Below, in pieces: positions 38,502-60,002 of a stretch of DNA of 64,000 bases. The DNA is taken from the NCBI RefSeq assembly GCF_014202425.1, contig NZ_JACHGT010000006.1, positions 124,001 to 188,000 of the forward strand. Reading direction: 5' to 3'. Positions within the stretch are counted from its first letter, which is position 1, and each line of letters starts with the position of its first letter. Both the position numbers and the translations under genes were made by a program. Origin of the DNA: Phytomonospora endophytica. GTDB taxonomy: Bacteria; Actinomycetota; Actinomycetes; Mycobacteriales; Micromonosporaceae. The notes under the pieces are model-generated. The model saw nothing but the letters and a program-made list of their open reading frames with translations. It was not told the origin of the DNA and searched no databases.

Positions 38502-38582
38502 ACCTCACCCCACGCCTTGCCCGGCGCGACCGCACCGGGTTTTGATTGCCCTGCCCCGCCCGCGCAGAGAGAGGCCGCGACC

Positions 38583-41595: not shown

Positions 41596-41609
41596 CTACC
41601 CTCATACCC

Positions 41610-42059
41610 GTGACCACCCGTTTCGACGACTGGATGGGCCGCGCCCTTGAGGTCGCGGCGGGCGCCGACCCGGCCGACGTGCCGGTCGGCGCCGTCGTCT
41701 ACGGCCCCGACGGCACCGAACTGGCCGCCGCCGCCAACGACCGCGAGGCCACCGGCGACCCCACCGGGCACGCCGAGATCCTCGCGCTGCGCGCCGCCGC
41801 GCGCGTCCACGGCGACGGCTGGCGCCTGTCGGGCTGCACCCTCGTCGTGACGCTGGAGCCGTGCACGATGTGCGCGGGCGCGCTGGTCCTCGCCCGGGTC
41901 GAGACGGTCGTGTTCGGCGCGTGGGAGCCGAAGACGGGCGCGGTCGGGTCGCTGTGGGACGTCGTGCGCGACCGGCGGCTCAACCACCGGCCCGAGGTGC
42001 ACGCGGGGGTGCGCGAGGAGGAGTGCGCGGCCTTGTTGCGGGCGTTCTTCCGGGCCTGA
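41610..42059 (+). CDS. tadA: tRNA-specific adenosine deaminase
   Basis: A 149-residue deaminase that converts A34 to inosine in tRNA-Arg(ACG), which is encoded in this window at 29812-29884. The zinc/catalytic motif HAE is at 54-56 and PCTMC at 84-88; the family's GAWEPKTGAVGSLWDVV segment follows. Essential in most bacteria. A TACCCT box ends 7 bases before the GTG start, so the mRNA is probably leaderless and independent of the upstream FG-GAP genes. Its usual partner gene lies 5.3 kb upstream. Confidence 0.95.
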   Translation: MTTRFDDWMGRALEVAAGADPADVPVGAVVYGPDGTELAAAANDREATGDPTGHAEILALRAAARVHGDGWRLSGCTLVVTLEPCTMCAGALVLARVETVVFGAWEPKTGAVGSLWDVVRDRRLNHRPEVHAGVREEECAALLRAFFRA

Positions 42060-42184
42060 CGGGCGAGCGCATAGGACAGCGCATATAGACGGTCATCTCT
42101 GCGTGCTCGATGGTGCCGAGCGCTCCACGGGGCTTCTATCCTACGCTTGTCCGATGTGGACAGCACCCGAGAAGGAGATCCGAC

Positions 42185-42355
42185 ATGCGCGTGTTCCGGC
42201 GTTTAGCCGACTCGATCACCGGCGTCCTCGTACCCCGCGCCTCGGCCGGGGCCTGTAAAGCCTGCTACGTGCACGGCTCGTGCGGCCAGGGCGGCCAGCG
42301 CATCTGCTGCTGGATAGGCAGCACCTGCCGCTACACCTGCGGCTGCGCGGCCTAG
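42185..42355 (+). CDS. Cysteine-rich small peptide, possible precursor peptide
   Basis: A 56-residue peptide with the same leader pattern as that at 27954-28130: LAD at 7-9, L15, P17, a basic residue at 18 and Ala at 19, 21 and 23. The 33-residue remainder holds eight cysteines (24, 27, 33, 41, 42, 48, 52, 54) with Trp, Tyr and Gly, ending GCAA. AAGGAG lies six bases before the ATG. It has no Sec-type signal core. A P450 gene follows 180 bases downstream on the same strand. Candidate secreted or modified peptide; family unnamed to me. Confidence 0.72.
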   Translation: MRVFRRLADSITGVLVPRASAGACKACYVHGSCGQGGQRICCWIGSTCRYTCGCAA

Positions 42356-42535
42356 CTCGTCTTCGGCGGGGCGGCGTCCCTCCCGTTTCTCCGCCACCGG
42401 CGAGCGGGCCCCCTCCTCCTCGCCCGAGCCGATCTTCCGGGCGAATGCGACAAGATCGTCCACTCTGGACAGTCGGGTGGCCGGGCGCGCACACTGAGTC
42501 GGTCCGACATCGCTCACGCGCACGGAGGATCACCC

Positions 42536-43855
42536 ATGAGCAACCTTCCGCCCCTGGCGTCGGGATCCCGCCCACTGTTAGGACACGCCGTCGCGATGTA
42601 CCGCGACGCCTTTCCCCTCATCGAACGCGGTCACCGCGAGCACGGCCGCGTCTTCTCCCTCGACCTGGCCGGGAAACCCGCCGTCGTCCTGCTCGGCAAC
42701 GAGCACGACCGCTGGCTGTTCAAGGAGACCGACAAGCTCTTCTCGATCAGCGAGGGCATGCCCTTCTTCGCCAGGATGTTCGACCCCGACATGTACTTCC
42801 TCGCTCCGCCGGCCGAGTACCAGCGGCAGCGCGAGATCCTGCTGCCGCGCTTCCAGGCGCGGCACCTGGCGAAGTACGTCGACATCATGACCGCCGAGAC
42901 CGAGGCCTGGATCGACGGGCTCGGCGAGTCCGGCGAGTTCGAGATCGTCGACGAGTTCGGGCCGCTGATCATGCGGATCGCCGCGAAGTCCTTCCTCGGT
43001 GAGGATTTCGGCGAGCGCCTCGACACCGACTTCTTCGCCGAGTTCCGCCGCTTCTCGGCCGGGCTCGACGTGATCTTCCCGAGCTGGCTGCCGCTGCCGC
43101 ACTTCATCAAGAGCCGCCGCGCCCGCGCCCGCCTGCACACCGCGCTGGGCAGGCTCGTCGACGAGCGCCGCGAGAACCCGACCGATCCGCCCGACTTCCT
43201 GCAGGCCCTGTCGGCCGCGACGTACAGCGACGGGGAGCCGCTGCCGGAGCGTCTGGTCATCAACATCGTGCTGGGTCTGACCTGGGTCGGGCAGGAGACG
43301 ACGACCGGGCACGCGAGCTGGGCGCTGATCCACCTGCTCCAGCATCCGGGTGAGCTGGCGAAGGTCCGGGCCGAGCAGCGCGATCGGCTGCCCGCCGGGC
43401 CGTTGAGTATCAGCGAGTTCCGGGAACTGCGCTATCTCGACGCGGCACTGCACGAGACCGAGCGTCTGCGGCCGGTCGCGCAGCTGATCGCGCGTGGGGC
43501 GCTGGAGGACATCAAGGTCGACGAGTACGTGATCCCGAAGGGCGCGCGGGTCTTCCTGTCGCCGGCGATCACGCACCGCCTGCCGGAGTTGTTCGACGAG
43601 CCGGAGACGTACGCGCCGCAGCGGTTCATCGACGATCCGAAGTCGGTGCAACTGCTGATCGGGTTCGGCGGGGGAGTGCACCGGTGTCTCGGGGCGCGGT
43701 TCGCGTACCTGGAGATGCAGATCATCGTGACGCTGCTGTTGCGCGCGATGGATCTGGAGTTGGTGGACCCCGACCCGCGCCCGATCGCGGGGCCGGGCAC
43801 GAAGTGGCCGCAGTCGCCGTGCCGCGTGCGGTACACGAGGAGGGGACGAGGCTAG
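42536..43855 (+). CDS. Cytochrome P450
   Basis: A 439-residue P450. The heme-binding signature FGGGVHRCLGARFAYLE gives the axial Cys; the K-helix ExxR is in HETERLR; the I-helix carries WVGQETTTG in place of the usual A/GGxDTT. Sequence resembles the CYP51/CYP120-like bacterial group rather than the macrolide-type. ACGGAGG precedes the ATG. No ferredoxin is adjacent. Natural substrate unknown; the cysteine-rich peptide upstream is one hypothesis, sterol or terpene substrates are another. Confidence 0.93.
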   Translation: MSNLPPLASGSRPLLGHAVAMYRDAFPLIERGHREHGRVFSLDLAGKPAVVLLGNEHDRWLFKETDKLFSISEGMPFFARMFDPDMYFLAPPAEYQRQREILLPRFQARHLAKYVDIMTAETEAWIDGLGESGEFEIVDEFGPLIMRIAAKSFLGEDFGERLDTDFFAEFRRFSAGLDVIFPSWLPLPHFIKSRRARARLHTALGRLVDERRENPTDPPDFLQALSAATYSDGEPLPERLVINIVLGLTWVGQETTTGHASWALIHLLQHPGELAKVRAEQRDRLPAGPLSISEFRELRYLDAALHETERLRPVAQLIARGALEDIKVDEYVIPKGARVFLSPAITHRLPELFDEPETYAPQRFIDDPKSVQLLIGFGGGVHRCLGARFAYLEMQIIVTLLLRAMDLELVDPDPRPIAGPGTKWPQSPCRVRYTRRGRG

Positions 43856-45705: not shown

Positions 45706-46416
45706 TTAAACCAGCACCGCTCCGAGCGCGATTTCCACCATGTCGGCGAAGGTCCGTTCCCGTTCTTCGGCGGGTAGGGCTTCTTCGCGGAAGATGTGGT
45801 CGGAGATGGTGCAGATCGTCAGTGCCCTCGCCTTGAACTTCGCGGCGAGTGTGTACAGCGCGGCCGCTTCCATTTCGACGGCGAGGACGCCGTATTCGGC
45901 GGCGCGTTTGTACGTGTCGAGGGAGTCGCCGTAGAACACGTCGCTGGAGAGGATCTGGCCGACGTGGACGGGGGCTCCGTCGCGGTTCGCGGCGAGGTCG
46001 GCGGCGGCGCGGAGGAGGCCGTAGTCGGCGACGGGCGCGTAGTGGAGTTGTCCGGCGAAGCGGTTGGCGTTCATGGAGGAGTCGGTGGCGGCGCCGATGC
46101 CGATGACGACGTCGCGGACGTTGACGTTCTCCTGGATCGATCCGGCGCTGCCGACGCGGACGATGGTCTTGGCACCGTATTCGGCGAGAAGTTCGTGGGT
46201 GTAGATCGACGCCGAGGGCATGCCCATGCCCGAGCCTTGGATCGAGATCCGGTGTCCTTGGTAGGTGCCGGTGTACCCGAACATGTTCCGCACGGTGGAG
46301 TAGCAGACCGCGTCGTCGAGGAAGGTCTCGGCGATCCACTTGGCGCGCAGTGGGTCGCCGGGCATGAGGACGGTCTCTGCGATCTCTCCGGGCTTGGCGC
46401 CGATGTGGTTGCTCAT
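45706..46416 (-). CDS. deoD: Purine-nucleoside phosphorylase
   Basis: A 236-residue hexameric-type (DeoD) phosphorylase that cleaves purine (deoxy)nucleosides to base and (deoxy)ribose-1-phosphate. It closely follows E. coli Deo[38 protein letters not shown] (in part), [22 protein letters not shown] and the TICTISDHI strand with the catalytic Asp. ATG at 46416 matches family N-termini; ATG at 46434 (2 bases after the upstream stop) would add six residues. It is the last gene behind the pseudokinase block and likely shares its transcript. Confidence 0.94.
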
Positions 46417-46436: not shown

Positions 46437-48149
46437 TCAGCCGACGGCCGAAGCCGGAACCCAGCCACAGGAGACCGAGCCGTCGCCGTGGGTGAGGCGG
46501 GCCACGGCCCAGCCGAGATCGGGGTCGACGGTGGTGGCGGTGATGTCGGTGATGTCGCCGTCGATGGTGGGTGCGTCTTCGACGGGCCATACGGTGGCGG
46601 TGGTTCCGGCGGTGACGGGTCGTGGGTTGTCGCCGGGGGCGATGGAGCAGCGGTGGACGGCGCCGAAGGTGGGCGCGGTGGTGACGGGGTAGCCGTCGCG
46701 GACTTCGATGCGCAGTGTCACGGGTTCGAAGTCGCTGTCGACGCCGGCGCAGCCGCCTTCCATGCCGATGCGGGCGAGGCTTTTCACTTCGATCTTCCCG
46801 TCGACGACGACGGGGTCTTCGAAGTAGTCGCCGCAGTGGACGCGGCTGATCACGGAGCCGGGGATCTGGACGGGCCGGCCGTCTTCCCACAGCCAGATCT
46901 GCATCCAGGTCGGTTCGGCGTTCCCACCGTGGGCGACGATCATGGTGACGGCGTCGAGGTCGTTGTCGTCGTCGAGGTCGGCGTAGACGGGGTCGGCGGC
47001 GAGTTCGGTGTAGGAGAGTTCGTCGAAGCGGTCGGCTTCGCCGTCGACGAGGGTGGTCCCGGTGGTGCCGTCGAAGCCGACGTATGTGGCGTTGCCCCAG
47101 TCGAAGGCCTTGATGTCCTCGTTGGGTGGTGCGGGTGGCCGGATTTCGGGTACGGCTTGTCCTCCGCCGCCTTCGAAGGCGTTGACGCCGACGGTGACTC
47201 CGCCCGCGATGACGGCGATTCCGGCGGCGACGGCACCGATCTTCAGGGCGGTGGCGCCGATGAGTCCTTTCGCGGTGGCGGCTTTCGCGCCGGCTCCGGT
47301 GCTCAGCGCCGACAGTGCTCCCGTGGCGCTCTGACCGGCGAGGATCCCGGCGGTGGCGGCGATTCCGGCCGCGGCGGCACCGGCTACGGCGAGGTTGATG
47401 GAGACCACGGCGTCGTTGAGCGGGCGCACGTCGGCGCCCACGTGGACCGCCGGGACGGGCAGCGGCGCGGGGCCTTCGGCCGGGGGCGGCAGTGCGGCGA
47501 GCGCGTCGCGGAGCTGTTCCGCCGTCGGTCGTGCGGTGGGATCGGCGACGGTCGCCGCGCGAAGCAGTGCGGTCAGCGCAGGCGGCACGTCGTAGAGGTC
47601 GGTGAGTTCACCGGGACGTCCGGCCAGTGCTCTGTACACAGTGGACGCGAGCGCCGCGACGTCGGCGGGCTGTCTGGTATCGCTCGGCGCGAAAGGGGTC
47701 GGGGTGCCGGGTGTGCTGGCGAGGCCGGGCGCGCAGGCGTCGAATCCGGCGATCGCGGGGTTTCCGCCGTAGACCACTGTGGACGGACAGATCGCGCCGT
47801 GCGTCAGGCCGCGCGCGTGCGCGGCGGCCAGGCCGCCGGCGAGCGCCGTGGCGACGCGGATCGCTTCGGCGGCACCGAGTGTGCCGACGGTGACCAGGTG
47901 CTCGGCGAGGGTCGGCGCGGCGGCGTCGACGACGAGCAGTGCCCGCCCGTCGGGCGTGCGGCCCGCGTGCCGGATCGTCGCGATCCCGGGATCGCCTGCG
48001 GCGCCGAGTAAAGCGGCGGCCCAGGGATCGAAGGCGGCGGGCGCGGGACGGAGCCCGACGACGCGCAGGACCGGGCCGGGCCCGGTGTAGATCTCGGCGG
48101 TGTCGTCGCGGTAGACGGGAACGGGCTGCACACCGTCTATTGTGCTCAC
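46437..48149 (-). CDS. Membrane pseudokinase receptor-like protein A (570 aa)
   Basis: Residues 1-230 resemble a Ser/Thr-kinase fold without catalytic residues: HRDxKPxN is replaced by HGAICPST (118-125) and DFG by GFD (135-137). An Ala/Gly-rich stretch (248-272, [20 protein letters not shown]) and a hydrophobic helix (303-323) form the membrane part. The C-terminal domain (about 345-570) has the acidic loop DLDDDNDLD (391-399) and ends with [16 protein letters not shown] at 48149 overlaps the stop of protein B by four bases (GTGA). No ATP-binding loop is obvious. Probably a sensor or scaffold; function unknown. Confidence 0.8.
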
Positions 48150-49861
48150 TCGTCGAGCCCGTTGTTGGGCACCCATCCGCAGGAGACCGAGTCGTCGTTG
48201 CGGATCATGCGCACCCGCAACCATGCGACGGGCCGCGTCTCGTCCCAGGTGGTGTAGATGAGTTCGAGTTTCTTGAAGTTGTCGGCGGTGTCGACCGGCG
48301 GCGCCTTCTCGTCGGGCGCGATCCGCGGCTCGTAGTTGACGATCTCCATAAGGGACTCGAACTCCGCCGGGATGCACGAGGCGGCCGCGCCGTGCGGCGA
48401 GACGGTCACCGGATACCCGTCCTCCACGGCGATCTCGACCTTCTCGTCCTGGTATTCCGGTTGAGCGCAGGTCGGCACCGCGATGGCGATGTTGCGGGTG
48501 AGCGTGAAGTGCCCGCCGTTGACGCCGGGGGGCTCGAAGTCGTTGCCGCAGCGTCCCGCGTCGGCCAGCGGATAGGGCAGCTGGACGGCCTTCCCGTCCT
48601 CCCACAGCCAGATGTAGGGCCACTCGAAGATGTTGTTGCCGCCCTCCTGGGCGAGCACGACGAGCGCGTCGAGGTCGTTGTCCCCGTCGGCGTCGGTGTA
48701 GACGATCGGGTCGTCGCCGAGGCGGTAGCCCTCGGTGTTGGTGTCGCCGTCGAAGGGCTTTCCCTTGCCACCGACCAGTTCCGCGGTCGTGCCCTGGACG
48801 GTGTCGGTGAAGGAGACGTTGCCGAAGTCGAACTCCTGGATCGCCGTGACCATCGGCCCCGGCCCGGCCTCGTCCTCGTTGAGGATCGTCACCCCGACCC
48901 CGACACCGGCCGCGATCACCGCCGCCCCGGCGGCGAAGGCACCGATCTTCAGTGCGCTGAGCCCGCCCATGAAACCCTTGGCGGAGGCCACTTTCGCGCC
49001 CCCACCCGAAGCCATCGCCGACAGCGCGCCCGAAGCGCCCTGCCCGACGACGACACCGGCCGCCGCGGCCGCCCCGGCCGCCGCCGCACCCGCGATGGCC
49101 AGGTTGATCGACACCACCGCCTGATTCACCGGCCGCACCGGCGAACCCACCAGCGCCGCCGCGACCGGCACCGCCGGGAGCGTGTTCTCCGTCGCACCGA
49201 TCACCGACAGCGACCCGTAGAGCTGCTGCGCCGTCGGGCGCTGCGCGGGATCGGGCGACATGCCCGCGCGCAACGCCGCCGTCAGCGGCGGCGGCACGTC
49301 GTAGAGTTCCCCGACCAGCCCGCCCGGCTGCCCTCCGAGCGCGGCGTACAGCGTCGCGGCCAGTCCGTACACGTCACCGGCCGGACCCGGAACGCCTTCC
49401 GGCGCGGCGAAACGGCTCGGCGCGGGCGGTTTCGCCATGCCCGGCGCGCACGCGTCGAAACCCGCCAGGCGCACACCGTCGGCGTACACGACCGTCGACG
49501 GGCACACCGCCCCATGCCACAGGCCCGTCGTGTGAACCTGCGCCAGCGCCGAGGCCAGCGCGAGACCCGTCGTGTGCACCTCCGCGACCGGCAGCGGACC
49601 CTGCCCGACCAGCCGCTCGGCGAGCGTCACCCCGGCCGCGTCGACGACCAGCATCGGCCGCCCGTCGGGCTCGCGCGCGGCCTGGAACACCGTCGCCACA
49701 CCGGGAAGCGGCGACACCGACAGCAGCGCCGCCGCCCACGGATCGAAGCGCGACGCGGCCACCGGCTCGGCGCCCACGATCATCACGGCGGGACCCCCGC
49801 CGGGCGCCGCCGCCGGGTACACCGATGCCGTCTCGTCGCGATACATGGGCACGTCGTTCAT
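48146..49861 (-). CDS. Membrane pseudokinase receptor-like protein B (571 aa)
   Basis: Paralogue of A with the same order. The kinase-like domain has HGAVCPST (116-123) and GFDACAPG (134-141) where HRD and DFG should be. [20 protein letters not shown] (242-261) opens the Ala-rich segment, then a hydrophobic helix (about 303-326). The ectodomain holds the acidic loop DADGDNDLD (390-398) and ends [17 protein letters not shown] at 49861 is preceded by a TAGGGT box with a 7-base gap, indicating a leaderless start. Translationally coupled to A. Confidence 0.8.
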   Translation of the reverse strand: MNDVPMYRDETASVYPAAAPGGGPAVMIVGAEPVAASRFDPWAAALLSVSPLPGVATVFQAAREPDGRPMLVVDAAGVTLAERLVGQGPLPVAEVHTTGLALASALAQVHTTGLWHGAVCPSTVVYADGVRLAGFDACAPGMAKPPAPSRFAAPEGVPGPAGDVYGLAATLYAALGGQPGGLVGELYDVPPPLTAALRAGMSPDPAQRPTAQQLYGSLSVIGATENTLPAVPVAAALVGSPVRPVNQAVVSINLAIAGAAAAGAAAAAGVVVGQGASGALSAMASGGGAKVASAKGFMGGLSALKIGAFAAGAAVIAAGVGVGVTILNEDEAGPGPMVTAIQEFDFGNVSFTDTVQGTTAELVGGKGKPFDGDTNTEGYRLGDDPIVYTDADGDNDLDALVVLAQEGGNNIFEWPYIWLWEDGKAVQLPYPLADAGRCGNDFEPPGVNGGHFTLTRNIAIAVPTCAQPEYQDEKVEIAVEDGYPVTVSPHGAAASCIPAEFESLMEIVNYEPRIAPDEKAPPVDTADNFKKLELIYTTWDETRPVAWLRVRMIRNDDSVSCGWVPNNGLDE

Positions 49862-49900
49862 GCCCGAGACCCTATCGACGTGCGGCAAACGCCCCGAAGG

Positions 49901-50902
49901 TCAGCCCGCGACCGCCGACCACGGCACCCAGCCGCAACCCGTGCCGCCGTCGGCCCAGGTGATCACGGCGATCGCGTAACCGTTGTCGATCGTGGTGTCC
50001 GGCGAAGGACGGTGACGCACCTCGACCTTGCTGTACGCGCCCGGCTCGGCCAGCTTCGGCGCGCCCTCGGCGTTGAGCACGACCGGCTCGGCCTTACCCG
50101 TCACGTCGGTCGTCTCCGTCGCGCCCGCCGGGGCGACGCGGCAGCGCGTCGTCGCCGAGTCGTGCTCACCCATCTTCTCCACCGGGAACGATGCCAGCAT
50201 GCCGATGTTCACCGACTCGGTCGCCGGGTCGCCACCGCACACGTTCGCCGTCGAGCGGGTCAGCGCCAGACCGTTCTCACCGGCCGCGATCGTCATGCGC
50301 GCCAAGGGATCGCACGTCCACTGCCAGCTCGCCTCGAAGGCGATCGGCTGCGCGGCCGTGCCGTCCCAGATCCACAGCAGGACCTGCGACCACGGCTTCT
50401 CGCCGTTGATGTCGACCAGGGCGGCCGCGTCGAGATCACCGTCACCGTCGAGGTCGGTGAAGACCGGGTCGCCCGACAGCGCGAAGTCCTCGTACTCACC
50501 GTTCTCGAAGGCGACGAGTTTGCCCTTGACGTAGACGGCGGTGTTCTTGAAGTCGACGGCCTCGATACCGCCCGCGGGCGCGTCGGACTCGCCGGGGCTC
50601 GCCGAGTCGCCGGGCTTGACGGCGCCCGGGTCGCCGTCCTCCTTGTTGAAGTATTCGAGACCGAAGTACACCGAGCCGCCCAGCAGGGCGACCGCGACGA
50701 CGATGATCGCGACGACCGGCCACACCTTGCGCTTCTTCGGCGGTGGCTGGTGGTGGTGCGCGGGAGGGATGGGCGGAAGCGGCGACCAGCCGGACTCGGC
50801 CGGCGGCGGCTGGGGCGGTCCGAAGACGGGCGTCGGCTGCGTCGGGGCGCCCTGGTTCGGGTCCCAGGGCATTCCGCCGGGCGGGGGAGGGGTCACGCTC
50901 AT
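49901..50902 (-). CDS. Kinase-less paralogue with shared ectodomain, protein C (333 aa)
   Basis: Residues 1-58 are a proline-rich cytoplasmic tail (PPPPGGMPWDP, PPIPPAHHHQPPP), followed by one membrane helix (about 60-82, VWPVVAIIVVAVALLGGSVY in part). The rest is the same C-terminal domain as in the pseudokinase proteins: acidic loop DLDGDGDLD near 153, conserved Trp and Cys residues, and the end GTGCGWVPWSAVAG. The kinase-like half is absent. A TAGCCT box ends 6 bases before the ATG (leaderless). It could be a co-receptor or decoy for its neighbours. Confidence 0.8.
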   Translation of the reverse strand: MSVTPPPPGGMPWDPNQGAPTQPTPVFGPPQPPPAESGWSPLPPIPPAHHHQPPPKKRKVWPVVAIIVVAVALLGGSVYFGLEYFNKEDGDPGAVKPGDSASPGESDAPAGGIEAVDFKNTAVYVKGKLVAFENGEYEDFALSGDPVFTDLDGDGDLDAAALVDINGEKPWSQVLLWIWDGTAAQPIAFEASWQWTCDPLARMTIAAGENGLALTRSTANVCGGDPATESVNIGMLASFPVEKMGEHDSATTRCRVAPAGATETTDVTGKAEPVVLNAEGAPKLAEPGAYSKVEVRHRPSPDTTIDNGYAIAVITWADGGTGCGWVPWSAVAG

Positions 50903-51031
50903 GGAGAGAGGCTAGCGCCGCCGGTCAACGGGGGTGCCGCCGGAGAGCCCGGCGTGTCCGCCCACGGTCGTGACGGCGACCACGGGATACCGCCGCGACA
51001 CCGGCCCGGCGGCTCAGGTACCCTCGTCGAC

Positions 51032-51118
51032 GGTGGCGTGTCCGAGTGGCCGAAGGAGCACGCCTCGAAAGCGTGTGACGGTGCAAGCCGTCCGTGGGTT
51101 CAAATCCCACCGCCACCG
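51032..51118 (+). tRNA. tRNA-Ser (anticodon CGA)
   Basis: Acceptor GGTGGCG (51032-51038) pairs with CGCCACC (51111-51117); anticodon arm CACGC-CTCGAAA-GCGTG gives CGA; a long variable arm (TGACGGTGCAAGCCGTC) identifies a class II, serine tRNA; T-loop has TTCAAAT. CCA is encoded at 51119-51121. Confidence 0.96.
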
Positions 51119-51123
51119 CCAAC

Positions 51124-51158
51124 AACGCCGCTCCACCGACAGGTGGGGCGGCGTTTTC
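51124..51158 (+). terminator. Terminator after tRNA-Ser
   Basis: AACGCCGCTCCACC (51124-51137) pairs with GGTGGGGCGGCGTT (51142-51155; one G-T pair) around GACA, then TTTTC. It starts 2 bases after the encoded CCA. Confidence 0.88.
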
Positions 51159-51177
51159 GCTTGGGAGGGCCGCGCTC

Positions 51178-51906
51178 ATGGACACCGGTGCGCTGACCTC
51201 GCTGTTCGCCGGGTCCGGACCGATCCTGCTCGACTTCGACGGGCCGGTCTGCGCGGTCTTCGCCCGCCGCCCGGCGCCCGGGGTCGCTGCACGCCTCGTG
51301 GCCGGGCTCGCCGCCGCCGGGAAGACGGTCCCGGCGCCGGTCGTGAGCACGGGCGACCCCCTCGCGGTCCTGCGATGGGCCGGCACGCTCGGGGAGCCCC
51401 GTGTGACGGAGACCGTCGACGACGCGCTGACCGCCGAGGAGCGCGCCGCCGTGGCGGTCGCCGAACCCACCCCGGGCGCCGCCGGGTTCATCGCGGCCGC
51501 GTGGGAGGCGGGAAGGCGCGTGGCCGTGGTGAGCAACAACGGCCGCCCGGCGATAGACGAGTACCTCGACGCTCACGGACTCGCCGGCGCGATCGCCGTC
51601 GTCGTCGGCCGTGCGCGCGGTCTGCCCGGCGAGATGAAACCGGACCCGCGCCCGCTGCGGCGCGCCCTGGCGGCCCTCGACGCCGAACCTGAACGTGCGT
51701 TCATGATCGGTGACTCGGTCGCCGACGTCGCCGCCGCGCGTGCGGCGGGCGTCCCGGTCGTCGGGTACGCCCGCCGTCCGGAGAAGGCCCGGCGCCTGTC
51801 CGGCGCCGGGGCCGACGCGGTGGTCGCCGACCTCGCGGTCCTCACCGGTCTCCTCAGACCACGACGTCCCAGGGCACCCACCCGCAACCGAGCGTCCCGT
51901 CGGTGA
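51178..51906 (+). CDS. HAD-family phosphatase
   Basis: A 242-residue haloacid-dehalogenase-type hydrolase. Motif I is LLDFDGPV (nucleophile Asp near 19), motif II is VVSNNG, motif III Lys is in EMKPDP, motif IV is MIGDSVADV. The cap domain is inserted after motif I. Similar to phosphoglycolate-phosphatase-like enzymes; substrate unknown. ATG at 51178 has GGGAGG upstream. The last 53 bases overlap the 3' end of protein D on the opposite strand, so this gene and the tRNA-Ser interrupt the pseudokinase block. Confidence 0.88.
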   Translation: MDTGALTSLFAGSGPILLDFDGPVCAVFARRPAPGVAARLVAGLAAAGKTVPAPVVSTGDPLAVLRWAGTLGEPRVTETVDDALTAEERAAVAVAEPTPGAAGFIAAAWEAGRRVAVVSNNGRPAIDEYLDAHGLAGAIAVVVGRARGLPGEMKPDPRPLRRALAALDAEPERAFMIGDSVADVAAARAAGVPVVGYARRPEKARRLSGAGADAVVADLAVLTGLLRPRRPRAPTRNRASRR

Positions 51907-53704
51907 ACGAGATCACCCCGTAGGCGTACCCGTTGTTGATGTCGGTGCTGGTGTCCTTCGCGTAGTACACGACCATCTTCGTGAACTCCGAGTCCTGCGC
52001 CACGACCTTCGACGAGGAGTCGGGGTGGAACAGCGGGTCGGACAGTCCGTACACGTCCTTGGTCTCCAGTCCCGTCGAGTTGACGTCGTCGCGGCAGTTG
52101 ACGACGGCGCTGTAGTGCCCGTCGTCGTACTGCACGACCTCGCCGTCCTTGACCTCGACGTGGATCTGCTCCGAGGAGTGGAAGCCGTCGTCGCACCAGT
52201 TCGCGTCGGCGCGGGTGACCTCGAAGTGGTTGGGCAGGGCGGCGTCGACGTCGAGCGACAGCGTCGGCAGCTCACTGCACGTCCACTGCCACGTCGCCTC
52301 GAAGTAGAGAGGCTCGGCGCGCTTCGACGACGGCTCGTACAGCCACACCTGCACGAACTCCCACGCGTCGAGGTCCTCGGCGGAGTCGCCGGCGTTCTCG
52401 ATCACCGCGGCCGCGTCGAGGTCGTTGTCACCGTCGACGTCGGCGTACACGGGCTCCCCGCTGAGGCTGTACAGCCCCGACTCGCCGTTCGAGAGCGTCC
52501 CGGGCTCCTGGAGCAGTGACACGTCGGCGTTGTCGAGGTCGACCTGCTTGATGCCCTCGTCGACGGCGATGACCGGATCCGGGGTGGGATCGTCCTTCTT
52601 CCCGGCGTTGACCGCGACGATGACGACGGTCACGACGACGGCCAGCGCCAGCGCGCTCACGCCGAGGACGATTCCCACGCTGGACTTCTTCTGCGGCACC
52701 GGTTGCGGCGCCCACGGCTGCTGGGGCGCGAACTGCGGGGCGTACTGCGGCGCCGGTGGCCCGGTCACCGGGAAGGCCGCGGGACCGCCCGAAGTCGGGT
52801 ACATCGGCGCGCCCGAGGTCGGATAGGGCGCGGGGGCTCCCGACGTCGGGAACGGTGCCGGGGCACCGGAGACCGGCCTGGGCGTTCCGCCCGCCCGGTT
52901 GATCTCGACGACACCGGTGGTGACCGGCCGGATCGCGATGCCGACGGCCTCGGCGGGCAGCGCGGGCGCGGCCGTCGGGACGTGCGGAAGCTCGATCGTC
53001 GCCAGTTCGGCGTGCAGCTGCGCGGCGCTCGGGCGGCCGTTCGGGTCGGGGTTCAGCGCAGCGCGCAGCAGCCCGGTGACCTGCTGTGGCACGCCCGGCA
53101 GGTCGAGGATCGACTGGTTGCGCAGGGCCGGGTTGTGCGGATCGACGGCGAAGGGCAGCTGTCCCCCGAGTGCGAGATAGCTGGTGGCGGCCAGGGCGTA
53201 CACGTCGGATGCGGGACCGGGCACGGGATCGAGCGGATTGAACCGCGAGACCGCCGACGGCGGCGCCATTCCGGGCGCCTGCCCGTCGAGGCCCGCCAGC
53301 TGCGGATGCCCGAAACCGTTGAAGAGCACAGTGGACGGTGAAACCGCGCCGTGCCGCAATCCGTTCTGGTGCAGGGTGTCGAGCGCGAGTGCCAGCAGAG
53401 AGGCGTTGGTGACGCCTTCCCCGACGGCGAGGGGACCGGTGTGGCACAGGCGTTCGGAGAGCGTGCTGCCACCGGCGTCGACCACCATGGACGGTCGCCC
53501 GTCGGATCCGGAGCCCGCCTGGAAGATCGTGGCGATGTTGGGGTGCGCCGACAGCTGCCGGACCAGGCCGGCCCAGGCGTCGAAGCCCGCCGGGTCGGTG
53601 AACCGGTGGCCGACGATCTGCATCGCGGGCGAGCCGTCCGGTCCGCTGACCGGGTAGCTGGCGGCGGCGTCGTCGGAATGGAGGGGGGACGCAGGCGTGG
53701 TCAT
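51854..53704 (-). CDS. Membrane pseudokinase receptor-like protein D (616 aa)
   Basis: Kinase-like domain with HGAVSPST in place of HRD and AGLDGQAPG in place of DFG, followed by NPDPNGRPSAAQLHAEL, as in kinase C-lobes. The Ala-rich segment of A and B is replaced by a Pro/Ser/Tyr-rich linker with SGAPAPYPTSGAPMYPTSG repeats. One membrane helix (GIVLGVSALALAVVVTVVIV) and the ectodomain follow, with acidic loop DVDGDNDLD and the end GTLGCGWVPWDVVV. ATG at 53704 is chosen over GTG 53740. It starts 28 bases after the stop of protein E. Confidence 0.8.
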   Translation of the reverse strand: MTTPASPLHSDDAAASYPVSGPDGSPAMQIVGHRFTDPAGFDAWAGLVRQLSAHPNIATIFQAGSGSDGRPSMVVDAGGSTLSERLCHTGPLAVGEGVTNASLLALALDTLHQNGLRHGAVSPSTVLFNGFGHPQLAGLDGQAPGMAPPSAVSRFNPLDPVPGPASDVYALAATSYLALGGQLPFAVDPHNPALRNQSILDLPGVPQQVTGLLRAALNPDPNGRPSAAQLHAELATIELPHVPTAAPALPAEAVGIAIRPVTTGVVEINRAGGTPRPVSGAPAPFPTSGAPAPYPTSGAPMYPTSGGPAAFPVTGPPAPQYAPQFAPQQPWAPQPVPQKKSSVGIVLGVSALALAVVVTVVIVAVNAGKKDDPTPDPVIAVDEGIKQVDLDNADVSLLQEPGTLSNGESGLYSLSGEPVYADVDGDNDLDAAAVIENAGDSAEDLDAWEFVQVWLYEPSSKRAEPLYFEATWQWTCSELPTLSLDVDAALPNHFEVTRADANWCDDGFHSSEQIHVEVKDGEVVQYDDGHYSAVVNCRDDVNSTGLETKDVYGLSDPLFHPDSSSKVVAQDSEFTKMVVYYAKDTSTDINNGYAYGVISFTDGTLGCGWVPWDVVV

Positions 53705-53732
53705 GACGGTGCCCTCGTTCTCTTTAGTGTTC

Positions 53733-55520
53733 TCACGCAATGGTTCCAGGCGGAATCCACCCGCAGGCGACGCTGCCGTCGGTCCGGGTCAGGCGGGCCA
53801 GGTGCCAGGGGCTGGTCCCGCCGCCGAGATCCCAGTAGGCGGACTCGATCGCGGTGAACTCCTCCGGCGCACCGACCACGGGCGATCCTTCGACGGGGAT
53901 CAGCAGCGGTGTGACGCGGCCGGTCAGGTCGGTGTGCACCTGGTTCGGCGCGGTGCTGTCGTAGCAGTTCCCGGCGGCGCCGAAGCCGGGCGCGAGCTGC
54001 ACGGGAAGGTGGTCGCGCAGGCCGAGGGTGATCGAGCCGGGACCGTCGTCACCGGCGGGATCGGCGTCACCGCAGCGGAAGGTGAAGTCCATGACGACCT
54101 CGACACCGCCGTCGGCGCCCGGTTCCAGACTCTCCACGGCGCCGCCGCAGTCCTGCTCGTGGACGGCCACATAGGGCGACTGGACGGCCTTCGCACCGTC
54201 CCATTCCCAGAAGTACAGGTACTTCGGGCCGCCGCCGGCCTGCACGGTGACCCACTGCGCGAGATCGAGGTCGTTGTCGCCGTCGAGGTCGGCGTAGACG
54301 GGATCGCCTTCCAGGACGTAGGTGTCGGAAGGCTGACTCGGATCACCGAGCGCCCCCGGGGCGCGGCCGCCGCTGAACTCCGTCGGCTCCTCGTCGACGT
54401 CGGGACTGAAGACGCGGCCCGGGGAAAAGGCGGCACCGGAGACGTCGAAGCCGCGGATCGCCTCGTCCATCGGACCGGGCCCGCTCGCCGTGCCGCCCGT
54501 CCCTTGTGGATCCTCGTCGAGCACGTTGACGCCGACCACGACGGCGGCGGCGACCAGGGCGGCGCCCGCGACGCCCGCGCCGACCTTCAAGACCGTCGAC
54601 GCCCCGAACGCCGATGCCGCCTTGCCCGCCGCGCCGCCCGCACCGGTGAGCAGGTCACCCGCGGCCCGCCCGGCCAGGATCCCCGCCGTGGCGGCGATCC
54701 CGGTGGCCGCGGCCCCGGCGACGGCGAGGTTGATGGACGCGACGGCGTCGTTGACCGGCCGCACCGGCGACCCGATGTCCGCGGCGGCCATGGGAATCCC
54801 GCCGACCCCGGTGGGGACGGCGGTGAACGCCCCGAAGCCTTCGGCGAGAGCGTCGGCGGCCGGGCGTCGCGCCGGGTCGGGATGCAGAGCCCCACGCAGG
54901 AGCGCGGTGAGCTCGACCGGGACGCCGGTGAGATCGCCCGAGATCTGGCGGCGCGCGGCCGGGTCGGCCGGTTCGGCGGCGAACGGCAGCCGACCGCCGA
55001 GAGCGGTGTAGGCCGTGGCCGCCAAGGCGTACACGTCGGAGGACCGGTGCGGCGTCTCCAGCGGCGCGAAGGGATGCGGTCGGATCGGCAGGAGCAGACC
55101 GGGGGCCCCGGCGTCCAGTCCGGCCAGGCGCGGACCGACCGTGATCACCGTGGACGGCGTGATGCCACCGTGCCGCAAACCCTTGGCGTGCAAGGCGGCC
55201 AGACCGCGCGCCAGCACCGCGAACATCCCGGCCGCCTCGGCGACCGGTACCGGACCGGTCGCGACCAGCCGTTCGGCGAGCGTCGCACCGCTCGCGTCGG
55301 CGGCGAACACCGCGTGCCCGCGCTCATCGAGACGTGCGCCGAGAACGCCGCCGAGGCCTGGAACACCGGCCAGGGATGCGATCGCGGCCGACCACGCGGC
55401 GAACTCGCCCGCCGGGGCGGGGCGCGTGCCGGTGACCACGGTGACCGGGCGGCCGTCGGGATCGCCCGTGAAGTGCACGGCGGCGGCCTCGTCGGCGTAC
55501 GCGAAATCGGGCGAGGTCAT
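53733..55520 (-). CDS. Membrane pseudokinase receptor-like protein E (595 aa)
   Basis: Kinase-like domain with HGGITPST for HRD and AGLDAGAPG for DFG; the C-lobe has SSDVYALAATAYTALGGRLP and HPDPARRPAADAL. The Ala-rich segment ([20 protein letters not shown]) and a second hydrophobic helix (VLKVGAGVAGAALVAAAVVV) follow. The ectodomain has the acidic loop DLDGDNDLD and the end SVACGWIPPGTIA. GAGGAGAG precedes the ATG at 55520. Like its neighbours, no glycine-rich loop or catalytic Lys/Asp is identifiable. Confidence 0.8.
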   Translation of the reverse strand: MTSPDFAYADEAAAVHFTGDPDGRPVTVVTGTRPAPAGEFAAWSAAIASLAGVPGLGGVLGARLDERGHAVFAADASGATLAERLVATGPVPVAEAAGMFAVLARGLAALHAKGLRHGGITPSTVITVGPRLAGLDAGAPGLLLPIRPHPFAPLETPHRSSDVYALAATAYTALGGRLPFAAEPADPAARRQISGDLTGVPVELTALLRGALHPDPARRPAADALAEGFGAFTAVPTGVGGIPMAAADIGSPVRPVNDAVASINLAVAGAAATGIAATAGILAGRAAGDLLTGAGGAAGKAASAFGASTVLKVGAGVAGAALVAAAVVVGVNVLDEDPQGTGGTASGPGPMDEAIRGFDVSGAAFSPGRVFSPDVDEEPTEFSGGRAPGALGDPSQPSDTYVLEGDPVYADLDGDNDLDLAQWVTVQAGGGPKYLYFWEWDGAKAVQSPYVAVHEQDCGGAVESLEPGADGGVEVVMDFTFRCGDADPAGDDGPGSITLGLRDHLPVQLAPGFGAAGNCYDSTAPNQVHTDLTGRVTPLLIPVEGSPVVGAPEEFTAIESAYWDLGGGTSPWHLARLTRTDGSVACGWIPPGTIA

Positions 55521-55571
55521 CGGCGGGGCTCTCCTCGGGCGGGGTCGGGGCGGGGTGGCGCTCGGCGGGTC

Positions 55572-57335
55572 TCACAGATCGGCGGCGGCCACCCATCCGC
55601 AGGTGGTGGTCCCGTCTGCGAGTGTGACGCGCGCGAGGTGCCACTGGATCTGCCCGGCGGTCTCCGGAAGGAAGACCGTTACGGAATCGATGTCCTCGGC
55701 CAGTTCCGGCGCCCCCGCGTCGGCGGCGACGCGGACCGGCAAATCCCCGTCCTGCGCACGGGTCTCGGCGCCCGGCGCGAGTTCGCAGCGCGAAGTCGCG
55801 CCCTCGTGGGGCGCGGTCTCCATGAGGAAACCGCCGCGCATCGCGACCGTGATGGTCTCCGCGCGGGTGTCGCCCTTGCCGAGCGCGGAACAGTCGGCGA
55901 AGGGGTTGGCGGAGACCAGGTCCAGCTCGATGCCGGGCCCCGCCGAGCGCATGTCCGTGACGTCGCAGACGCCGTTGACGACCTGCTGAGCCTGCTTGGG
56001 GCGGCCGTCCCAGGTGAACAGCAGGACGTAGGAACGTTTGCTGCCGCGGACCTCCAGTACGAGGTGGATCGCGGCGGTGTCCTGGTCGCCGTTGTGGTTG
56101 CCGTCGGCGAAGACCGGCCCGTCGGTGAGGGTCCAGCTTTCGGCCCGGCCGTCGTCGTTGGTCGAGGTGGCCGAGCCGCCGGTGAGGGTGACCTTGCGGT
56201 CGTTGTCGGCGGGAACGGTGAACTCGATGGCGTTGAAGTCGACACGCTCGATCGCCGAGGAGCCCTCGGTGGCCTCGGCGAACTGGTCGCGCCACAGCCA
56301 CACACCGCCGATACCGGCGGCGATAACGGCGAGAACGACGACGGCGACGCCGATCCGGCGGCCGGTGCGGCGCCCGGATGCCTTGGCGGGCTTGGACGTG
56401 ACGGGCTTGGCCCGTACGGGCTTCGGTGCGGGAGGCGCCACCGGCAAGGGCCGGGTCGGTGCGAGGCCCGGCGGCATCGGCGGGCTCTTCTCCCGGCCGA
56501 TCCTGGGCTGCTCACCGGTCACCGCCTCGATGATCGTGGTCATCCCGCTGCTGACCGCGCGGACATCGGAGCCGACCACGGCGACCGGCAGTGCACCGGT
56601 CGTCACCGTCTCCGGCACCTCCACAGTGGACAGGGCATCGCGCAGGAGCGCGGCGCTGGGCCGCGACACCGGGTCGGGGTTCAAGGCGGTCCGGAGCATC
56701 CCGGTGAGTTCGGGCGGAACCCCGGGCAGTTCGGTGATCCCGCGCAGGCGCAGCGCCGGATCGGTCGGGTCGCCGACGTAGGGGAGTGTGCCGCCGAGCG
56801 CGACGTAGGCCGTCGCGGCCAGCGCGTAGACGTCGGCGGGCGGCCCCGGATCGGCCTCCGGCGCGGTGTACAGGCCCGGCCGCGCGGTCTTGACCAGCGC
56901 CGGGGCGCACATGTCGAAACCGGTCAGCTGTGGTGTCCCGTCGGCGGCGTAGACCACTGTGGACGGACAGACCGTGCCGTGCCGCAACCCGGCCGCGTGC
57001 GCGGTGTCGAGCGCGTCGGCGATGGCGGTCGTCGTCCGCACGACCTCGTTGACGCCCGGCGGCGTGTGGACGAGCCGCTCGGCCAGCGTCGTCGATCCCG
57101 TGTCGCACAGGACGTACGGGCGCGCGTCGTCGGTGAGCCCGGCCGCGGCGACGGCGGCCAGGTGCGGATGCCGGACACCCCGCAGCCGCTCGGCCCACGC
57201 CGAGAACTCGGCGGCCGGCTCGGCCGGGCGGTGCCCGACGGTGTAGATGAGCCGACGTCCGCGCGGCCCGGCGGCCTCGTACACCGCGGCGGTGTCATCA
57301 CTGCTCAGCCACCGGATGATCTGGAAGCCCTCCAT
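55572..57335 (-). CDS. Membrane pseudokinase receptor-like protein F (587 aa)
   Basis: N-terminus MEGFQIIRWLSSDDTAAVYEA resembles a degenerate glycine-rich loop followed by a beta-strand. HRD is replaced by HGTVCPST and DFG by GFDMCAP. A Pro/Lys-rich linker replaces the Ala-rich segment; one membrane helix (RIGVAVVVLAVIAAGIGGVW) follows. The ectodomain loop is the most diverged (DGNHNGDQD) and the end is TTTCGWVAAADL. A TACCGT box ends 6 bases before the ATG, so transcription may start here independently. Confidence 0.8.
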   Translation of the reverse strand: MEGFQIIRWLSSDDTAAVYEAAGPRGRRLIYTVGHRPAEPAAEFSAWAERLRGVRHPHLAAVAAAGLTDDARPYVLCDTGSTTLAERLVHTPPGVNEVVRTTTAIADALDTAHAAGLRHGTVCPSTVVYAADGTPQLTGFDMCAPALVKTARPGLYTAPEADPGPPADVYALAATAYVALGGTLPYVGDPTDPALRLRGITELPGVPPELTGMLRTALNPDPVSRPSAALLRDALSTVEVPETVTTGALPVAVVGSDVRAVSSGMTTIIEAVTGEQPRIGREKSPPMPPGLAPTRPLPVAPPAPKPVRAKPVTSKPAKASGRRTGRRIGVAVVVLAVIAAGIGGVWLWRDQFAEATEGSSAIERVDFNAIEFTVPADNDRKVTLTGGSATSTNDDGRAESWTLTDGPVFADGNHNGDQDTAAIHLVLEVRGSKRSYVLLFTWDGRPKQAQQVVNGVCDVTDMRSAGPGIELDLVSANPFADCSALGKGDTRAETITVAMRGGFLMETAPHEGATSRCELAPGAETRAQDGDLPVRVAADAGAPELAEDIDSVTVFLPETAGQIQWHLARVTLADGTTTCGWVAAADL

Positions 57336-57350
57336 GGCGACACGGTATCC

Positions 57351-59111
57351 CTAGTGTTCCAGCTTTATCCATCCACAAGCGACCGACTCGTCCGGATAGG
57401 TCAGGCGCGCGTTCGTCCAGCCGTCGGAGTTGAGCCACTCGCCGTAGTCGTAGGCGATCGACGGGAACTCGCCCTCGACGGCGGGCGCGTCGTCCTTGGG
57501 CGCCAGGCGCGGGGTCACCGGTTCGAGCACGTCGACCAGCTGGGTCCCCTCGAAGGCGTTGCAGCGGTCGGGCGAGCCGAAGGCGGGCGCGATCTGTGCC
57601 AGGTACCCGTCGCGCATCCCGACGGTGAAGGTCTCCTCGACCGCGGACTCCTTCGCCGGCTCGTAGAAGCAGCCGGTCCGGTGCGGGTTGAGGCCCTTGC
57701 CGGTGACCTGCACCAGGCCGTCGACGACCTTGAGACCGTCCACGGCGCACATTCCCTCACCGGCATTAGGCGCCTGGACGGCCTTGCCGTCCTCCCAGAG
57801 CCATGCCATGACGTAGACACCGGCGTACTCGTAGGCCAGATGCTCCATGACGAGCACGGCGTCGAGGTCGGCGTCGCCGTCGAGGTCGGCGTAGGCCGGA
57901 TCCCCTTTGAGGGTCCAGGTGTAGTCGTCGTAGACGTTCTCGTGCTTCACCTCGGCGGTGCCGGCGGCGAGCTGGATGGTGTCGCCGCTCCTGTTGGGTT
58001 CCACGAAGGAGATCGAGGCGAAGTCGACGCCCCTCATGGGCGGCTGGCTGAGCGAGACCTCGGGCGGGGCGGCGATGCCCTCGTCGTTGGCTACCTGGAT
58101 CCCGACGACGGCGGCTCCGGCGACGACCGCCGCGGCCGTCACGCCGATGCCGATCTTCCAGACCAGCGCCAGACCGCCGCCCTTCGCGGTCGTCGCGGCG
58201 GCGGTGCTCTGCACCGCGGCCGCTCCGGCCGTGCCCTGCCCGGTGGCCTGCGCCAGCAGGACGGGCGCGGCCTTCCCGGCCAGGATCCCGGCGGTGGCGG
58301 CGATCCCGGTGGCCGCCGCGCCCGCGACGGCGAGGTTGATGGACACGACGGTGTCGTTGACCGGCCGGACGGGCGAACCGACCCGCGAGGGGTCCATCGA
58401 GGCGATCACACCGGCGGGCGTGTTGCTCCGTGACAGTGAATCGCGCAGGAGGCCCGCGCCGGGGCGGACACCGGGATCGGGATGCAGTGCCGCACGCAGC
58501 ATCCCGGTGATCTCCACCGGGACACCGGGCAGGTCCTCGATCGGCGCGGCCGCGTAGGGGATCGTCCCGCCGAGCGCGACATAGGCCGTGGCGGCGAGAG
58601 CGTACACATCGGACGGTGGCCCGGACTGCCCCTCGGGCGCGGTGAACGCGCCCGGCACGACCGGCGCGGCCATCTCCGGCGCGCGCGTGTCGAAACCGGC
58701 GAGGCGCACGGCGCCGTCCCCGTCGAGCAGGATCGTCGACGGGCACACCGCACCGTGCCGGAAACCCCTGGCGTGCACGGCTTCCAGCGCGTCGGCGACT
58801 TTCGCCACGACGTGCACCACGACGTCGGCCGACGGCGGTGAGGACGCCGTGAGCAGCTCCGACAGCGTGCGCTCGGCCGTTCCGGAGACGAGGAAGGGCC
58901 TCCCGTCGGCGCCGACACCGCCGAGGGTGACGTCGACGATGTTGGGGTGCGCGCTCAACTCGGCGACCGCGCGCGCCCAGGCCCGGTAACCCTCCGGGTC
59001 GGCGGCGGCGTTCTTGCCGACGGTGTAGATGAGCCGCCGCCCGGCGGCGTCCGCCGCCTCGTAGGTCGCCGCCGCGGAGTCCTCGCCGAGGGGGCGCACG
59101 ATCCTGTCCAT
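57351..59111 (-). CDS. Membrane pseudokinase receptor-like protein G (586 aa)
   Basis: The most conserved-looking member. N-lobe MDRIVRPLGEDSAAATYEAA, HGAVCPST for HRD, AGFDTRAPE for DFG, C-lobe SDVYALAATAYVALGGTIPY. The Ala-rich segment ([20 protein letters not shown]) and a hydrophobic helix (VWKIGIGVTAAAVVAGAAVV) precede the ectodomain, which has the loop DLDGDADLD and the end SVACGWIKLEH. A TACGGT box ends 6 bases before the ATG at 59111. Upstream is the TPR-like gene, 54 bases away. Confidence 0.8.
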   Translation of the reverse strand: MDRIVRPLGEDSAAATYEAADAAGRRLIYTVGKNAAADPEGYRAWARAVAELSAHPNIVDVTLGGVGADGRPFLVSGTAERTLSELLTASSPPSADVVVHVVAKVADALEAVHARGFRHGAVCPSTILLDGDGAVRLAGFDTRAPEMAAPVVPGAFTAPEGQSGPPSDVYALAATAYVALGGTIPYAAAPIEDLPGVPVEITGMLRAALHPDPGVRPGAGLLRDSLSRSNTPAGVIASMDPSRVGSPVRPVNDTVVSINLAVAGAAATGIAATAGILAGKAAPVLLAQATGQGTAGAAAVQSTAAATTAKGGGLALVWKIGIGVTAAAVVAGAAVVGIQVANDEGIAAPPEVSLSQPPMRGVDFASISFVEPNRSGDTIQLAAGTAEVKHENVYDDYTWTLKGDPAYADLDGDADLDAVLVMEHLAYEYAGVYVMAWLWEDGKAVQAPNAGEGMCAVDGLKVVDGLVQVTGKGLNPHRTGCFYEPAKESAVEETFTVGMRDGYLAQIAPAFGSPDRCNAFEGTQLVDVLEPVTPRLAPKDDAPAVEGEFPSIAYDYGEWLNSDGWTNARLTYPDESVACGWIKLEH

Positions 59112-59165
59112 GGGCTAACCGTATGGGGGTGAGGCAAGGGTTCACCGCGCGGCCGGTCGCGATTC

Positions 59166-60002
59166 CTACCGCCGCGACGTCCGCAGCCTCCGCACTCGCT
59201 CCAGGCCCGCCGCCAGCCGCGCCGAACGCACGGGCGCGTCTCCGGCGGCCGCGAGGTCGGCGTCGCAGCCCGCCAGATCGCCCGAGGCCAGCCGGGCGTG
59301 GGCCCGGCGGACCAGTCCGTTCGCCCGGCCCCGGGCGCGGCCCGGCGCGTAGGCCTCATCGGCGCGGGTCAGCCACGCCTCGGCGTCGCGGTAGCGCCCG
59401 GCGGTCAGCCATCCGCGGCCGATGGCGCCGGGCAGCTGACCGGGGTCGCCCAGGACGGCGGCGGCCCAGTCGGGCACGTCGGTGTGGTCGGCGGTCTCGT
59501 GGAGGCCTTCGGCGGCCTTGAGGTGCGCGACGGCCGCCCGTGTGTCACCGGCGCGTTCGGCGCAGCGGGCCGCGGCGGCGTGCAGGCCACCGCGTTGCAG
59601 GGGCGCGACCGGGCCGGTGAGCGCGCCCGTCAGCTCGCGCAGGGCGGCGGCGTGGTCTCCGGCGTCGTCGTGGGCGAGGGCCCGGTCGAGGCGGATGTGG
59701 GTGCGCAGCCACGGGTCCTCGGCGACGGTCTCGGCCCTGGCCAGCAGGTCGTGGGCAGCGGCCGCGCCCGTGTCGCGCAGTGCCCAGGCGGTCCGGTCGA
59801 GGATGACGGCGGCGTCGTCGCCGCGCGCGGACCTCGTCAGCACCCAGGTCGCCGCCGAGCGGGCCTCGGCGGCCACGGCGGCGCCCCCGTGGGCGAGGTC
59901 GCGGCGGGTGAGCTCGTCGGCGAGGGCGCGCAGGTCGACGCCCGGCGACAGGCCGGCCAGGGGCGCGAGGGTGAGACCGAGGAGCAACCGGCGGCGTCGC
60001 AT
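59166..60002 (-). CDS. TPR-like exported protein, first gene of the pseudokinase block
   Basis: A 278-residue helical protein. It begins MRRRRLLLGLTLAPLAGLSPG, a twin-arginine-like or lipoprotein-free export signal. The rest consists of helical hairpins of TPR type (WLRTHIRLDRALAHDDAGDH, AAARCAERAGDTRAAVAHLK, GWLTAGRYRDAEAWLTRADE). Such modules bind proteins. A TAGTTT box ends 6 bases before the ATG, giving a leaderless promoter, and no terminator lies before protein G, so it may head that transcript. Partner relation is inferred from position only. Confidence 0.72.
   Translation of the reverse strand: MRRRRLLLGLTLAPLAGLSPGVDLRALADELTRRDLAHGGAAVAAEARSAATWVLTRSARGDDAAVILDRTAWALRDTGAAAAHDLLARAETVAEDPWLRTHIRLDRALAHDDAGDHAAALRELTGALTGPVAPLQRGGLHAAAARCAERAGDTRAAVAHLKAAEGLHETADHTDVPDWAAAVLGDPGQLPGAIGRGWLTAGRYRDAEAWLTRADEAYAPGRARGRANGLVRRAHARLASGDLAGCDADLAAAGDAPVRSARLAAGLERVRRLRTSRR

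Follow-up and report, generated by a model that had tools for sequence, protein, structure and literature searches.

The window analysed here is a 64,000-nucleotide stretch of the 8.35 Mb genome of Phytomonospora endophytica (contig NZ_JACHGT010000006.1, positions 124,001 to 188,000). Within it, six adjacent intact open reading frames (ORFs) on the minus strand encode proteins of one plan: a kinase-like N-terminal domain of 220–241 residues, a linker with a membrane segment, and a shared C-terminal ectodomain of ~230 residues. An earlier reading of the DNA, made from the sequence alone (the sequence-only reading), had proposed six neighbouring paralogues combining a kinase-like domain, an anchor and a common C-terminal domain, and the six intact frames bear this out. 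Of the stretch it had assigned to the family, 46437–60002, the six members stand; the frame at 59166–60002 is not a member, and 49901–50902 encodes the ectodomain alone. We refer to the array genes as G6, G5, G4, G3, C, G2 and G1, in transcription order, and list them together with their orthologues in Actinorhabdospora filicis (AfA to AfF and AfS) and the features that split or border the array:

G6, 57351..59111, minus strand: pseudokinase ~1–232, Ala/Gly helix 253–289, transmembrane segment ~320–338, ectodomain ~360–586; orthologue AfA (L020 10001–11746)
G5, 55572..57335, minus strand: pseudokinase, Pro-rich linker, one transmembrane segment, ectodomain with loop DGNHNGDQD; orthologue AfB
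G4, 53733..55520, minus strand: pseudokinase, Ala/Gly helix and transmembrane segment, ectodomain; orthologue AfC
G3, 51854..53704, minus strand: pseudokinase, Pro-rich linker, one transmembrane segment, ectodomain; orthologue AfD
C, 49901..50902, minus strand: Pro-rich cytoplasmic tail, KKRK, one transmembrane segment, ectodomain alone, without kinase domain; orthologue AfS
G2, 48146..49861, minus strand: pseudokinase, Ala/Gly helix and transmembrane segment, ectodomain; orthologue AfE
G1, 46437..48149, minus strand: pseudokinase, Ala/Gly helix and transmembrane segment, ectodomain; orthologue AfF
tRNA-Ser(CGA), 51032..51121, plus strand: separates the two halves of the array
HAD-family hydrolase, 51178..51906 (start approximate), plus strand: convergent with G3; outside the family
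DeoD purine-nucleoside phosphorylase, 45706..46416, minus strand: borders the array at the G1 side
NsdA-type TPR-like protein, 59166..60002, minus strand: 54 bp upstream of G6; not a family member

The tRNA-Ser(CGA) and HAD hydrolase genes split the array into four and three genes. Gaps between G6, G5, G4 and G3 are 15, 51 and 28 bp, with G3 assumed to start at ATG 53704 (the ORF list has TTG 53740). C, G2 and G1 form the second group, in which the GTG start of G1 overlaps the stop of G2 (GTGA), and G2 is assumed to start at ATG 49861 (TTG 49888 in the ORF list). KKRK, KK or Arg-rich stretches precede the transmembrane segment in C, G3 and G5. Ahead of this segment, G1, G2, G4 and G6 carry a second hydrophobic helix, which is Ala/Gly-rich and conserved (residues ~253–289); similar stretches also occur in kinase-free relatives.

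The N-terminal halves resemble Hanks-type kinases in fold and have lost the residues required for catalysis. A profile of the family matched Mycobacterium tuberculosis PknA (E 1.1e-15), and the AF2 model of G6, with a predicted local distance difference test score (pLDDT) mostly above 90 in the kinase half, aligned with PknA over 226 residues (Z 23.0, 2.8 Å, 26% identity; Foldseek E 3.1e-11). No single array protein reaches the Pfam kinase cut-off of 31.7 bits, and only G6, at 29.6, comes near it. The C-lobe DP..RP motif is retained, as is APE in many members, and the bilobal fold is predicted from the model to be intact in spite of the changed catalytic positions. In all six array members HRDxKPxN reads HG(A/T/G)(V/I)(C/T/S)PST and DFG reads GFD or GLD, as named in the sequence-only reading. 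Losses of the β3 Lys and the αC Glu can now be added, with both positions assigned by sequence spacing and predicted strands rather than by inspection of a superposition. Across the twelve kinase-like domains (the six and their A. filicis orthologues), β3 Lys is replaced by T, I or V, αC Glu by an invariant Trp, HRD by HG(A/T/G/L), the catalytic Asn by Thr and DFG by G(F/L)D. With β3 Lys, αC Glu, HRD Asp, catalytic Asn and DFG Asp altered in 12/12 copies from two genera, the case that catalysis is not to be expected is stronger than originally claimed. The altered active site is itself conserved: Trp45, His119, Gly120, Thr126, Gly139 and Asp141 are invariant in all twelve domains, and five of eight changed catalytic positions are fixed to one new residue, versus 33/233 positions domain-wide (hypergeometric P = 0.0018, a guide only, as related sequences and hand-picked alignment positions enter the test).

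All seven genes have one-to-one orthologues in A. filicis (G007, contigs BSTX01000004 and 9), a member of the same family, Micromonosporaceae according to NCBI; each genus is represented by one genome. AfA, AfB, AfC and AfD lie on one contig and AfE, AfF and deoD on the other, and within each contig the order of the kinase-fold orthologues matches that in the window. The deoD–G1 linkage is kept, and the tRNA-Ser(CGA) gene is found near the end of the second contig, upstream of AfE. AfS, the orthologue of C, is located elsewhere in the A. filicis genome. The one-to-one orthology and matching order indicate that the array is older than both genera, and the presence of the same six genes in a second genus indicates that they are maintained. 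As gene order and flanks are common to A. filicis, a mobile island, suggested by the tRNA gene, was rejected. Frames are open in 12/12 genes of both genera. In each of the six orthologue pairs the kinase half has diverged less than the outer one, with 48–77% identity versus 35–58% for the ectodomain (kinase/ectodomain, %: 64.9/42.5, 76.8/35.0, 48.2/41.3, 72.5/55.1, 68.6/57.9 and 59.3/50.9). Synonymous sites between the two genera were judged to be saturated.

The outer domain is specific to the array within its own genome: the seven matches of its profile all lie in the array, each with an E value of 1e-73 or lower, and nothing else was matched up to E 1. The likeness between the members is thus not due to chance. 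Four Cys residues are invariant in all 13 aligned ectodomains, and no further Cys occurs in the outer half of the 12 fused proteins. The DxDxDxDxD loop (Asp 409, 411, 413, 415 and 417) is present in 12/13 sequences. This motif had been described as conserved throughout the six; it is exact in five, and in G5 the second and third Asp are replaced by Asn. CGW(V/I), reported to lie at an almost constant distance from the C terminus, is indeed invariant in the six members, a few residues from the end. In strand order and in their GW(V/I) ending, the last 60 residues look like a bacterial SH3 domain, although the likeness is weak. CGW may therefore not be a motif of its own but the point where a disulfide-closed, SH3b-like barrel ends. 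The ectodomain model is of good predicted quality (pLDDT 91.3, predicted template modelling score 0.85), and a Foldseek search with it against the PDB returned no match below E 0.1 (best E 0.12). Sequence searches of the PDB gave no match up to E 10 for the ectodomain or for its C-terminal part. A match to β-propeller pieces (VIA, Z ≤5.7, residues 6–151) was taken as a common arrangement only. Some kinase-free relatives start with lipobox-like signals, called by eye (LAAC, GAAGC and TSAC; L149 6233–7027, L153 6589–7632 and L157 5582–8326). Because several free-standing relatives resemble lipoproteins in this way, and given the four invariant Cys, we infer from sequence that the ectodomain lies outside the cell, probably with two disulfides and one metal ion (probably Ca2+) at the DxDxDxDxD loop.

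The distribution of the ectodomain was read from evenly drawn genome samples that do not cover the groups in full. The ectodomain profile matched in 16/301 genomes of the family, from 7/44 genera; elsewhere in the phylum only partial matches were seen, in 4/395 genomes. Among the loci read, fusion to the kinase-like domain was restricted to the P. endophytica genome and A. filicis. Another genus has ectodomain-only genes, single or paired, near deoD-like or purine-synthesis (pur) genes (L149, L150, L151, L152 and L155; genes named by eye from their sequences). The position beside deoD in both settings suggests an old common locus. The nearest tree relative of the array kinase domains is a single-copy pseudokinase (L136; G000:C1 ~97000–109000; L190–L195), conserved in several genera, with Trp for the αC Glu, HGxxxP and mostly GFD. 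Its short outer domain is of a different kind, and each genome checked has one copy. In the P. endophytica genome it lies near two DivIVA-domain coiled-coil genes and an AI-2E family permease; one of the two coiled-coil genes matched Pfam DivIVA (2.6e-9), and the other, like the Scy and Wag31 models, stayed below cut-off. DivIVA-like genes, recognized by eye from an RGYDxxQV motif, also lie near the orthologues in A. filicis and in genomes G004, G013, G014 and G045, three of these five loci having a permease-like gene with multiple transmembrane segments as well; in some genera the AI-2E-type permease gene stands between the pseudokinase and the DivIVA-domain genes. This DivIVA-type neighbourhood of the parental pseudokinase points to envelope growth. 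In Frankia and Parafrankia (L024, L037 and L089), a single frame encodes a pair of kinase-like domains; HRD is replaced by HGNITP in the first of them and is intact in the second.

Trees of the two halves gave different histories. The twelve array kinase domains form one clade (99/98), beside the single-copy pseudokinase of the same family. In the ectodomain tree the twelve are not one clade and are intermixed with kinase-free genes of another genus: G4/AfC groups with such genes (97/95), G5 and G6 group with two other kinase-free genes (98/95), and G3 and C with three more (97/95). An approximately unbiased (AU) test rejected a tree in which the twelve ectodomains were constrained together (p-AU 1.8e-9); with C and AfS added p-AU was 0.015, for a grouping that was chosen after the tree had been seen. 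The idea of an expanded family with one ectodomain type must thus be revised: the ectodomains are homologous between the members but fall into several lineages that are common to kinase-free genes. With orthologue distances as the unit, the divergences between the kinase paralogues fall at 1.6–4.0, after the split of the parental gene from the genus with the kinase-free copies (4.55). This crude clock tilts the balance towards a kinase domain that spread across pre-existing ectodomain genes and away from an old fusion followed by repeated losses. It is possible, and we propose it with some reserve, that a dead kinase domain, kin to the pseudokinase of the DivIVA locus, came to stand before several existing ectodomain genes by grafting or by recombinational copying. 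The result would have been six receptors that differ in input and share a non-catalytic output, comparable in a bacterium to the gene families of receptor-like pseudokinases. Alternatively, the present-day proteins would be the same had an old fusion lost its kinase domain several times in the other genus.

Bacterial pseudokinases have been catalogued, but a function is known for few of them, and a 2025 review describes the group as experimentally little explored (PMC12599244). Of the families it catalogues, ActPs1 and ActPs3 are closest to the array, ActPs1 being compared by its description only. The ActPs3 protein MviN of M. tuberculosis, whose pseudokinase forms back-to-back dimers and serves as a non-catalytic scaffold recruiting FhaA (PMC12599244), shares with the array an actinobacterial kinase fold, loss of all three catalytic motifs, a link to the membrane and bulky aromatic residues at the ATP site. 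It differs in its motifs, VALT / Lsidhpsr / Y-- (PMC12599244), where the array has T/I/V, HGxxxPST and G(F/L)D; neither these motifs nor an FPG variant occurs in the array kinases. The MviN pseudokinase is also part of a peptidoglycan-synthesis protein, whereas those of the array are N-terminal to an anchor and ectodomain, and a six-gene array is absent in MviN. ActPs1, as described in PMC12599244, is likewise actinobacterial with all three motifs substituted. The G-helix is missing in about 60% of its members. In the G6 model no helix occurs between αF (165–179) and the helix at 199–208; G3, G4 and G5 hold more residues in this region than G6. Many ActPs1 proteins, not all, carry PQQ_2, for which the array gave no match in Pfam. 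EssB/YukC of the type VII secretion system (T7SSb) also combines a cytoplasmic pseudokinase and a single membrane pass without catalysis (PMC12599244); however, it belongs to Firmicutes, is linked to T7SSb and has the motifs LDMR / Ytfvlapd / TRG, and no gene of such a system was recognized among the array neighbours examined. GLW in place of HRD, the mark of the GLW pseudokinases, is not found in the array, which has HG(A/T/G/L). PASTA-type PknA and PknB of M. tuberculosis have the same fold, with the kinase inside the cell, but are active enzymes without this ectodomain.

We consider it an even call that the six proteins are receptor-like pseudokinases that work as receptors or scaffolds without enzyme activity; by analogy with the systems above, the sensor or scaffold role put forward in the sequence-only reading is plausible. 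Our best guess is an envelope-linked non-catalytic scaffold, based on the DivIVA-type neighbourhood of the parental gene and on the MviN–FhaA and EssB precedents (PMC12599244). In such a model the ectodomain, placed outside, would recognize envelope or environmental ligands, and ligand binding or clustering would alter the docking of the cytoplasmic pseudokinase on a partner. This partner would most likely be an active Hanks kinase or the substrates of one, and no catalysis would be involved, as in MviN and EssB. That the kinase half changes slowly and the outer half faster suggests six different inputs feeding into one common output. Several observations weigh against this model. The ligand, the metal binding and the partner of the six proteins are all putative, and a gene for a dedicated active kinase was not observed beside the array. 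Should the Ala/Gly helix of G1, G2, G4 and G6 cross the membrane, both halves of these proteins would lie on one side. Both A. filicis contigs terminate in the array region, leaving a gap in its array order. Domain matches for the outer half stayed below threshold: Pfam SH3_3 matched the last 60 residues in 3/25 members (first 19.1 versus 27 bits, E 0.0015), and FG-GAP matched 2/13 ectodomains (best E 0.042, below cut-off), each ectodomain having a single such loop. The proposed likeness to an FG-GAP Ca2+ loop is therefore a weak lead, resting on the Asp loop itself and set against this Pfam score and the lack of a PDB fold match below E 0.1.

Another way for dead receptors to act would be as decoy or dominant-negative subunits, pairing with active PknA/PknB-type kinases and holding them inactive, that is, by negative regulation instead of ligand-driven scaffolding. 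Several HRD-bearing kinases in the same genome would be available for pairing, the kinase fold is predicted to be intact, and the back-to-back dimers described for the MviN pseudokinase (PMC12599244) offer a precedent. However, all seven copies of the ectodomain are in the array and no kinase of this genome outside it has one, and we regard decoys as unlikely. The strict conservation of the altered active site (Trp45, His119, Gly120, Thr126, Gly139 and Asp141 in 12/12), which speaks against decay, would also suit a kinase fold with another nucleotide-dependent activity, as in SelO (AMPylation) or SidJ (glutamylation). These enzymes, though, retain the ATP-motif Lys (WHLK, VAVK) and the metal-motif Asp (DYG, DLG; PMC12599244 Table 1), whereas the array kinases are without β3 Lys, αC Glu and DFG Asp, making a non-canonical enzyme improbable.

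The same conservation bears on whether the genes are functionless relics of duplicated kinases. Loss of the catalytic residues is what decay would produce, yet the frames are open in 12/12 genes, the dead half is 48–77% identical between genera, above the outer half, and the replacement residues are invariant; relics are disfavoured to the point of being hardly credible. A part in a defence system was raised by the top NCBIfam and PADLOC matches, which are to the defence kinases MAD6 (NCBIfam MADS6, up to 1.1e-17), PD-T4-6 and MkoA (PADLOC, up to 5e-17; PADLOC-DB supplies no cut-off for these two). For G6, the MAD6 score is 54 against a 460-bit cut-off, and the best stretches fall in the general kinase region. 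C and the 59166–60002 protein have no PADLOC match, and vertical one-to-one conservation is unlike that of a mobile defence gene, so that a defence role is very improbable.

Bacterial pseudokinases, membrane-anchored ones included, are already known. The architecture, the conservation of six genes as an array and the mismatched histories of the domains appear to be new, with ActPs1 compared by description only; no bacterial array of this kind was found in the open literature, which misses most subscription papers. The array is well suited to studying how bacterial signalling can run through kinase folds unable to phosphorylate and, with the parental gene visible, whether outer and inner domains swap as modules. 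The ectodomain, lacking a confident Pfam or PDB match, is worth a structure.

Three further observations concern the surroundings of the array. The NsdA-family TPR-like protein (59166–60002), in which the helix-turn-helix part was not recognized, is possibly cotranscribed with G6; its orthologue was not found at the corresponding place upstream of AfA in A. filicis, and it was therefore dropped as a partner of the array. A few kb from the array, the window holds two tandem genes for secreted-type proteins alike in sequence (38517–40037 and 40162–41595, plus strand), to neither of which the ectodomain profile gave a match; FG-GAP repeats were recognized in the first (Pfam 3.8e-9). Finally, a TadA-like deaminase gene and a P450 gene (78% identical), at 41571–43855 on the plus strand of the window and L133 1462–3328 in A. 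filicis, lie beyond deoD in the former and between tRNA-Ser and AfE in the latter, a local rearrangement.

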